Assembly: GCA_002723075.1 (NCBI GenBank) | Contig: PBNJ01000016.1 | Location: 6,435-70,434, forward strand | Length of the DNA stretch: 64,000 nucleotides | Reading direction: 5' to 3' | Origin: Flavobacteriaceae bacterium | Lineage (GTDB): Bacteria; Bacteroidota; Bacteroidia; Flavobacteriales; Flavobacteriaceae | Shown: positions 34,809 through 38,029 of the stretch, piece by piece | How the letters are laid out: every line of letters begins with the position of its first letter | Numbering within the stretch: position 1 is the first letter of the stretch | Notes under the pieces: model-generated | Seen by the model: only the letters and a program-made list of their open reading frames with translations | Database searches by the model: none | Told to the model about the DNA's origin: nothing | Position numbers and translations under genes: made by a program

Positions 34809-36164
34809 GTGAAAAAATCATTGAATTTTTGGCAAATCATTAATATGAATATTGGATTTTTTGGAATCCAATTTAGTTTTGGTTTGCAACAAAGCAATAT
34901 GAGCCCCATTTATAAATATTTAGGGGCAGAGGAGTCAGAATTGCCAATTCTTTGGCTAGCTGGACCAGTAACAGGACTTATTGTTCAGCCAATTATAGGA
35001 GCAATCAGCGATGGCACTTGGAGTCCAAAGTGGGGTCGGCGAAAACCATTCTTTTTAATTGGAGCTATTGTTGCAAGTATCTCCCTTGTTCTAATGCCCT
35101 TTTCCTCTACGATATGGATGGCAGCTGGATTACTCTGGATTTTAGATGCTGCAAATAATATCGCTTTAGAACCATATCGAGCTTTTGTCTCAGACAAGCT
35201 TCCTGAAAAACAGTATTCATTTGGCTTTCTTATACAAAGTTTTTTTACAGGGCTAGGAATCACCCTTGCTAACTTTACTCCCGCTATTCTTGTGATGCTT
35301 GGTTTCTTAACAATGAATGATAAGTTAGAAAATGGAATTCCTCTTGTCACTTACTATGCTTTTTTTGTTGGTGCAGCAGCATCTCTAATTACGATTTTAA
35401 TTACAGTTCTTACCACCTCAGAAATACCCCCTAGTGAAGCTGAAGAAAAGCAATTGAAAGAACAAAAAAAAGAAGGTAGAATTATTCAACGTACATGGAA
35501 TGATATTGTGGGTGCATTATATGAAATGCCAACCCCTATGAAACAACTTATACCTGTCATGTTTTTTTCATGGTATGCAATGTTTTGCTATTGGCAATAC
35601 CTCACTTCATGTTTATCTTTATCTCTATACAATACTACAGATCAAGCATCCCCATATTACGCACAAGCCCAGCTACTAACTGGAAACCTAAACGGGACTT
35701 ATAATATTGTTTGTGTTTTTGTTGCTTTTGCAATGATACCTATTGCGCGTTTTCTCAGAGCAAAAGTTCTGCATTGCATCAGTCTAGTTATTGGAGGAAT
35801 TGGGCTTTTGAGTATTCCAAGCTTAAGTGATCAAGTCGAGATATTATCGATTACAAACCCTTTTGGAAGTGGGAGAATTATCATTTCGCAGATATATCTA
35901 TATGCGATTGCTTTAGGGATAACCTGGGCATCCATGATGTCAATGCCATATCAAATTGTTGCGAGCTCAATCCCAAAAAATAAAATGGGGGTTTATATGG
36001 GTATTTTTAATATGTTTATTGTCATTCCTATGATTATACAAATCATTACTATTCAGTTTGGTGTTTATGATTTGTTGGGAGGAAACCCCATAAACGTAGT
36101 TTTATTGGGTGGCGTTTTTCTTATTTTAGGTGGGCTATCTTCTTTAAGGATTAATCAAAAATGA
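34809..36164 (+). CDS. MFS/GPH-type disaccharide transporter, sucrose/maltose transporter (SLC45/SUT)-like
   Basis: 12-TM-like; WGRRKPFFLIGAIVASISLVLMPFSS, GLQQSNMSPIYKYLGAEESELPILWLAGPVTGLIVQPIIGAISD; MTPMSMPYQ-like TWASMMSMPYQIV. GTG start. Confidence 0.85.
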   Translation: MKKSLNFWQIINMNIGFFGIQFSFGLQQSNMSPIYKYLGAEESELPILWLAGPVTGLIVQPIIGAISDGTWSPKWGRRKPFFLIGAIVASISLVLMPFSSTIWMAAGLLWILDAANNIALEPYRAFVSDKLPEKQYSFGFLIQSFFTGLGITLANFTPAILVMLGFLTMNDKLENGIPLVTYYAFFVGAAASLITILITVLTTSEIPPSEAEEKQLKEQKKEGRIIQRTWNDIVGALYEMPTPMKQLIPVMFFSWYAMFCYWQYLTSCLSLSLYNTTDQASPYYAQAQLLTGNLNGTYNIVCVFVAFAMIPIARFLRAKVLHCISLVIGGIGLLSIPSLSDQVEILSITNPFGSGRIIISQIYLYAIALGITWASMMSMPYQIVASSIPKNKMGVYMGIFNMFIVIPMIIQIITIQFGVYDLLGGNPINVVLLGGVFLILGGLSSLRINQK

Positions 36165-38029
36165 AAGTTAACACCCAAAGTCATCCGATTCAATTAAGCC
36201 TATCCATTATTGAAAAAGCTGCTTCACCAAACGGCTTTGTCGCCAGTTTAGATGATAACGATAATTACAATCGAATATGGACCAGGGATGCTATGATAAC
36301 GTCAATAGCTGTATTGTGTCAAGAAAAAAAATCATTATACCCCGTCGTTAAAAAAAGTATTAAGACTATCATCTCACAAATTCATCAAGATGGATGGGTG
36401 CCATCCAACATTTGTTTTGGCGATGATGGCAGCAACCCAATTGTAAGTTATGGTGGGCCCGTTGGACGTGTCGATAATGTATTTTGGCTTCTTATTGGAG
36501 GAATCTACTTCATGGAAATAAGCGGTGACATGTCTTTGAAAGATTCGTTGTACAAACTTGCTGACAAACAATTAAAATTAACAACTTCTTGGGAGTTTAA
36601 TGGAAAAGAATTAATGTATTGTCCTACAAGTTCAAATTGGGCAGACGAATATCCTATGGAGGGCTATGTTTTGCTCAACCAAATTCTTCGGTTTTGGGCA
36701 TTTAAAAAAGTAGGAGGGTTTTATGAAAGTGATTTATTTACTGTAAAAAGTAATGCAATTAAAGATGCCATAAGTTATCATTTTTTCGGAGAAGGTCAAT
36801 GTAAGCAAACATTATTCACTGAAATACAAGATCAGGAACTTTCAACACTGTGGGGGGTACACCGAATAATGAGTTCATTCAATCCTGGTGGAATCAACAA
36901 AAGAATTGATAGTCTAGCTTACTCGTTGGCAATTGGACTTGGAATTGGCACCTTAGAAACTGAAGAGCGACTGGAATATTTGCTTAATAAAGCATCCCAA
37001 GGACACATTGGCTTACCGAGTTTTCATCCCATCATCACTAAAGAAGACAAGGAATATCAACAGCTTTTATCAAATTATGCCTATTCATTTAAAAACAAAG
37101 CCGGACATTTTCACAATGGTGGAATATGGCCAATGGTAAATGGATGGACACTGGCATGCTTATCTTTAACAAAAAGGGAATCAACTTTGTATGAAAAATT
37201 AGATGCTGATTTCCATCAACTTAGAGGCAAATTTCCTTACTTTAAAAACTTTAGTGAATATTTTGACGCAAACAATTACGAGGCTTATGGAACAAAAAAT
37301 CTTTGCTTCTCTGCTGCAGGACATTTGTTAAGTCAAGCATCTGAAAAAAGGCTTTGTCAACTGTTTGGACGTCAGACCAATTTGATAGATCATGTTCATA
37401 TTAAAGACAACGTACAACAAATAGTAAATCTAATCAGTAAATGTGAAAATAAGCCCTGTGTTCTTTTTATTTCAGGGGAATCTGGTTCGGGGAAAACAAC
37501 TTTAGCTAATGAGATATCAAGCTTCTTACAACTAGCCGGTAAAAAGAGTTATGTGATGAATCAAGATAACTACTTTCATCTTCCACCCAACCAAAACCAT
37601 AGTAAGAGAATAAATGATTTGAGTTGGGTAGGAATTAATGAGATCAATTTAGAACTTATGAAAGAACATCTTAATACATTAACTCAAAAAAACAAATCGG
37701 AAATTAAAGTCCCCCAACTCAACAGAATTTTTGACAGGTTTGATGAATGTAATGTTGAAGTTGATGCCTTTGATTTTGTTATAGTCGAAGGAACTTATAC
37801 CTTTTCAATTGCAACTGATGAAGACATGAAAGTCTTTTTAAACATAAATTATAAGGATACGTTGAAAAAACGAAACTCTCGTAATCGCGACAGCATTGAC
37901 AAAGAAATTAGTCCTAAAATTCTAGATATAGAACACAGGATTATAAAAGAGTTTTGTCAGCAAGCCAATTGGATAATTGATAAGACCCAAACAATAATTA
38001 CAAATTCGTTTCCAATTAAAACTGATTAA
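36161..38029 (+). CDS. Fusion: (alpha/alpha)6 glycosidase domain (GH100 neutral-invertase-like) plus C-terminal uridine-kinase-like P-loop kinase
   Basis: N-terminal region: [85 protein letters not shown]-terminal region: P-loop [39 protein letters not shown]. No stop codon between the two parts. Confidence 0.8.

Follow-up and report, generated by a model that had tools for sequence, protein, structure and literature searches.

How is a sugar used by a cell that encodes a glycoside hydrolase and a P-loop kinase in one gene, and which sugar is it? The question is raised by a gene of an uncultured Flavobacteriaceae bacterium represented by a metagenome-assembled genome, located within a stretch of 64,000 nucleotides of contig PBNJ01000016.1 (assembly GCA_002723075.1), denoted here as the window. 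A preliminary description, made from the nucleotide sequence, had read this gene as a single ORF of 622 amino acids, joining a GH100-like to a uridine-kinase-like half and starting within the stop codon of a sucrose-transporter-like MFS gene. All of these points are borne out: the ORF (36161-38029, plus strand) is intact and unbroken, in the sequence ATGA its start codon and the stop codon of the MFS ORF (34809-36164) overlap, the permease scores best against TIGR01301, the sucrose/proton symporter model (114 bits, below the strict cut-off of 511), and both halves pass their Pfam cut-offs.

The fusion is real and not an assembly artefact. An independent metagenome-assembled genome of the same genus (G012, contig JAQWIL010000003.1), representing a second species, harbors the same fusion with 623 aa and 84% identity. 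A comparison of the two copies gives a dN/dS of about 0.15 for the hydrolase and about 0.18 for the kinase part, i.e. both domains are under purifying selection. A frameshift or an assembly join, which the preliminary description had named among the findings that would overturn it, is ruled out by the second genome together with this selection analysis. The linker of 35 residues is only 43% identical between the two copies, and its dN is not below its dS; a drifting linker between two constrained parts is to be expected where a flexible tether holds two working domains together. The halves were modelled separately, and the models carry no relative orientation of the two. No signal peptide is apparent by eye in the 622-aa protein. 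The earlier idea of import followed by hydrolysis and phosphorylation in the cytosol is supported. A viral or phage origin of the gene was also considered, and no match was found. Among the open-access papers searched, none describes this fusion. The features are compiled in Table 1.

Table 1. Coordinates of the fusion gene, its domains and residues, and the neighboring genes (window positions, except for the last row)
Feature	Position	Strand	Basis or remark
LacI-family regulator, divergent from the locus	19955..20977	-	Homologues beside the cassette in relatives
SusC-like outer-membrane transporter	21265..24237	+	Sequence; recurs beside the cassette
SusD-like lipoprotein	24255..25811	+	Recurs beside the cassette
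MFS sucrose-symporter-like permease	34809..36164	+	TIGR01301; adjoins the hydrolase in relatives too
GH100-like hydrolase/P-loop kinase fusion gene	36161..38029	+	622 aa; same fusion in G012
GH100-type (alpha/alpha)6 hydrolase domain, residues 1-395	36161..37345	+	Pfam, InvA profile match, AlphaFold model, fold search
Putative catalytic Asp162 (NWADEY)	36644..36646	+	Aligned with InvA Asp188; invariant in 41 other homologues
Putative catalytic Glu366 (SEYFD)	37256..37258	+	Aligned with InvA Glu414; invariant in 41 other homologues
Inter-domain linker, residues 396-430	37346..37450	+	Weakly conserved, fast-evolving
P-loop kinase domain, PRK/uridine-kinase fold, residues 431-622	37451..38026	+	Pfam, model, fold search
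Walker A GESGSGKTT, residues 439-447	37475..37501	+	Sequence and alignment
GH97, SusB/FjGH97A-type alpha-glucosidase	38032..40155	+	
GH65 kojibiose hydrolase	40159..42198	+	NF053734, 1076 bits (cut-off 800); 7fe3
Second GH97 alpha-glucosidase, SusB/FjGH97A-type	42135..44303	+	
Glycerol kinase GlpK	44355..45839	+	Above cut-off
Glycerol-3-phosphate dehydrogenase (GlpD)	45832..47382	+	
Aquaglyceroporin-like GlpF	47393..48139	+	Sequence; same place in G012
Sucrose-phosphate phosphatase/GH100-like fusion	L041 9197-11284; L042 9212-11296		

The N-terminal half is a GH100-type hydrolase. PF12899 (GH100) matches residues 296-391 with 32.7 bits (gathering cut-off 23.6), and the scores of homologues reach 67.9 bits. 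A profile built from 17 homologues matches the Anabaena invertase InvA (5goo) at 4.6e-17 with both catalytic residues aligned. These residues are Asp188 and Glu414 in InvA (PMC6995568); in the alignment the Asp of NWADEY falls on InvA chain position 189 and the Glu of EYFD on 415, a one-residue offset from the literature numbering. The catalytic pair (D162/E366) is thus retained, and among otherwise conserved columns of an alignment with 41 other homologues the window hydrolase differs at three places only. The AlphaFold model (pLDDT 82, pTM 0.88) shows a GH100-type barrel, and ranks 1-28 of its fold search in the PDB are all GH100 sucrose invertases, led by InvA 5goo (E 8.5e-14, TM 0.78) and including plant CINV (6ttj) and InvB (5z73). 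Beyond GH100, the next family starts at 5.8e-8, and a GH63 mannosylglycerate hydrolase is found at 1.1e-6. With the GH100 invertases (Anabaena InvA and InvB, plant CINV), the domain has in common the fold, the profile, the Asp/Glu pair, the cytosolic location, and the HNGG motif. It differs from them by an identity of only about 19% to the characterised members, by its fusion to a kinase, by its placement in a Bacteroidota sugar-uptake locus, and by being about 60 residues shorter, with a low-confidence loop (residues 214-231 of the model) noted when the GH100 three-helix insertion was looked for. In the hydrolase tree, the branch leading to the domain of the window genus is exceptionally long, at 3.8 changes per column, and the specificity of the domain could have shifted.

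The C-terminal half adopts the PRK/uridine-kinase fold. PF00485 matches residues 437-574 with 30.6 bits (cut-off 22), and the model (pLDDT 83) has as fold neighbors 1rz3, PRK, UCK2, PanK, and 3c8u, the last of these annotated in its deposition as 'putative fructose transport system kinase'. The P-loop fold and the motifs of the family (UCK2, PRK, PanK, 3c8u) are kept, namely an intact Walker A, the DxYF acid, EGTY, and the RxxRxR basic lid. Despite this kinship, an identity as uridine kinase is rejected: the NCBIfam udk model yields 54.3 bits against an equivalog cut-off of 220.3, the kinase belongs to a clade distinct from the uridine kinases that these genomes also encode (support 100/100), and the window genome (G000) carries a separate udk-like gene of its own. 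To our knowledge, there is no kinase of this fold with proven activity on fructose. PF00294 (PfkB) is not among the 25 best families listed for the fused kinase, and PfkB is a functional counterpart only, of different fold. A sister kinase family (L068-L082) occurs in another family of the phylum (f33), whose small genomes have one or two copies each; there the neighboring genes vary, and no hydrolase partner was seen.

The partners of the hydrolase in related genomes are informative about its role. Of the 400 genomes sampled from the family, 40 contain a close homologue; apart from the window's own, each of these is a separate, unfused gene with a product of about 390 aa. According to the neighborhood reading, it belongs to a recurrent cassette consisting of a LacI regulator, an outer-membrane TBDR or SusCD system, a TIGR01301-type MFS permease, the hydrolase, and a kinase; in some cassettes a sodium:solute-symporter-like gene, as judged by eye, takes the place of the MFS, and the cassette was also found on a Gemmatimonadota replicon. 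The kinase is a PfkB protein in 32 genomes and a uridine-kinase-like protein in 12 (G000, G012, G841, G109, G266, G403, G518, G613, G681, G1123, Saprospiraceae L032, and Gemmatirosa L162). Among the loci viewed, none harbors both types, and six showed neither in view. In the hydrolase tree, nearly all loci with the uridine-kinase type outside the window genus group in one clade, within which G024 uses PfkB. Mutual exclusion and tree pattern together fit a non-orthologous replacement by a kinase with the same job. Among curated models, those for IolC and fructokinase match the cassette PfkB proteins best, with neither score reaching its cut-off. The typical substrates of PfkB kinases are sugars of the fructose or ribose type rather than glucose or glycerate; since the two kinase types are interchangeable, fructose is favored over glycerate or glycerol.

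Hydrolase plus kinase is a sugar-use gene pair found across Bacteroidota, and the fused form is the unusual one. The window brings together a LacI regulator, a permease, a hydrolase, and a sugar kinase, which is the gene set of a sucrose cassette (csc/sux-like). With the csc, scr, and sux loci, e.g. sux of Xanthomonas (PMC1790865), it shares the LacI regulator, the TBDR, the inner-membrane permease, and an intracellular sucrose hydrolase; the latter is an amylosucrase or a GH32 enzyme there and of GH100 type here, where in addition a kinase gene (PfkB or uridine-kinase-like) joins the cassette, fused to the hydrolase in the window.

The preliminary description knew of no characterised enzyme with this architecture. 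The fusion is not unique; at least three independent hydrolase-kinase fusions exist: in the window genus, in G841 (595 aa), whose congener G1123 keeps hydrolase and kinase as two genes, and in G380, where PfkB is the partner of the hydrolase (719 aa). A single origin of the two uridine-kinase-type fusions (window and G841) is rejected by the AU test (p = 1e-7), a comparison in which long branches are in play. Repeated independent fusion suggests selection for a fixed stoichiometry or for product retention. A more distant GH100-like domain of Flavobacteriaceae is fused to a sucrose-phosphate phosphatase and adjoins a sucrose-phosphate-synthase-like GT4 gene, tying a GH100-like branch to sucrose again. 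That cluster (L041/L042) would place sucrose synthesis and possible hydrolysis side by side.

Taken from its genes, the protein is probably a cytosolic bifunctional sucrose hydrolase-fructose kinase. The invertase-like fold, a permease of the sucrose-symporter family, and the PfkB partner in most relatives narrow the substrate list, left open in the preliminary description (a disaccharide or glycoside, among them trehalose, kojibiose, glucosylglycerol and glucosylglycerate; hexose, glycerol or glycerate), to sucrose and fructose, and make glycerate or glycerol unlikely for the fused kinase. Sucrose would enter via the TonB/Sus outer-membrane system and then the MFS permease; the GH100-type domain would split it to glucose and fructose through the D162/E366 pair, and the C-terminal P-loop kinase would transfer phosphate from ATP to C1 or C6 of the fructose so formed, standing in for the PfkB sugar kinase of the sister cassettes. 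We infer sucrose as the substrate, fructose as the phosphate acceptor, and any coupling of both active sites. A more tentative suggestion is that the kinase may represent a new, non-homologous fructokinase of PRK/uridine-kinase fold, which displaces PfkB, is in some lineages joined to the invertase, and has fructose passed between the sites, such that sucrose and ATP would yield glucose and a fructose phosphate. If true, this would be a fructokinase family now not annotated as such (for NCBIfam it is a weak uridine kinase) and an unusual natural invertase-kinase fusion, and the cassette would be a clear marker of sucrose use in many Flavobacteriaceae. In most oceanic Prochlorococcus, sucrose is one of the main compatible solutes (PMC6753628).

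The remaining genes of the locus may point to a wider diet. In the dextran locus FjDexUL of Flavobacterium johnsoniae, a periplasmic GH97 enzyme and a GH65 kojibiose hydrolase, which cooperate on branched dextran, are accompanied by SusCD, as in the window (PMC10316084). The window locus differs from FjDexUL in having no GH31 or GH66 gene and in its additional sucrose-type cassette and glycerol pathway; its GH65 gene has no counterpart in the G012 locus (L036), which is collinear in all other respects. It is plausible that the locus serves several alpha-glucosides, e.g. glucosylglycerol and sucrose, both of which cyanobacteria accumulate as compatible solutes (PMC6753628). With so many alpha-glucosidase and glycerol genes around it, the fused hydrolase could in reality act on an alpha-glucoside other than sucrose in the cytosol.

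One such candidate is an alpha-glucosyl osmolyte, glucosylglycerate or glucosylglycerol, with the kinase forming phosphoglycerate or glycerol phosphate. The GH63 mannosyl- and glucosylglycerate hydrolases have the same fold as the window hydrolase, a D-glycerate 3-kinase (7xpc, matched at 0.0014) belongs to the superfamily of the kinase, and GlpK, GlpD, and a GlpF-like protein are encoded downstream of the fusion gene. We consider it improbable nonetheless: GH100 structures are ahead of GH63 by about seven orders of magnitude in the fold search, a dedicated GlpK for glycerol is encoded in the locus, the protein found in place of this kinase in most relatives is PfkB, whose family is not one of glycerate kinases, and in relatives such as G266 the viewed surroundings of the cassette contain no glycerol genes. 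The narrower first guess of a glucosylglycerate hydrolase with a glycerate kinase was dropped after the neighborhood reading and the fold search. That the hydrolase acts on trehalose or another non-sucrose alpha-glucoside imported by the MFS permease, and the kinase on glucose or a different hexose, likewise has little probability. A GH37 trehalase-like gene adjoins the MFS and kinase genes in G266, and several cassettes are accompanied by GH13, GH65 or GH97 alpha-glucosidases; however, an operon that already encodes a dedicated trehalase has no need of another, and fold and profile indicate sucrose invertases.

With sucrose or a related glucoside as the substrate of the hydrolase, the kinase might instead phosphorylate glucose and thereby supply the missing glucokinase of a reduced genome. 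This is unlikely, albeit with some points in its favor. A ROK kinase is absent from 13 of 13 genomes of the genus (the window genome and 12 others, all incomplete at 58-86%), a Glk-family kinase was not found in G000 or G012, and each of these two has one PfkB only, the G000 copy adjoining a purN-like gene and being probably a housekeeping enzyme. These absences make a wider hexokinase role possible, as far as incomplete genomes allow; in the search for eukaryotic-type hexokinases in the genus, the control set itself matched nowhere. On the other hand, the sister cassettes use PfkB, typical of fructose- and ribose-type sugars and not of glucose, and G109, G266, G518, and G403 have ROK or Glk yet also the uridine-kinase-like protein. 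The kinase domain as a regulatory or degenerate module lacking sugar kinase activity is highly improbable: in the window protein the DDYF motif reads DNYF, its second acid being Asn, but the first Asp aligns with the conserved acid, this Asp and the other kinase motifs are invariant, the domain is under purifying selection, and the sister species has DDYF. The sucrose hydrolase-fructose kinase remains the preferred reading.

Two further gene groups of the window are worth recording. Between SusD and the permease (25911-34689) lie genes for two VCBS/FG-GAP repeat proteins, a 287-aa protein without an assigned family, and a PAP2/haloperoxidase-like protein; the block is also located next to the hydrolase gene in G012, G024, and G266, and in part in other genomes. 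On the other side of the LacI gene (7801-19940), xylose-isomerase-like, Gfo/Idh-like, DUF1080-like, cytochrome c, and GMC-type oxidoreductase genes were recognized by eye, a cluster that, likewise by eye, resembles 3-keto-glycoside catabolism.
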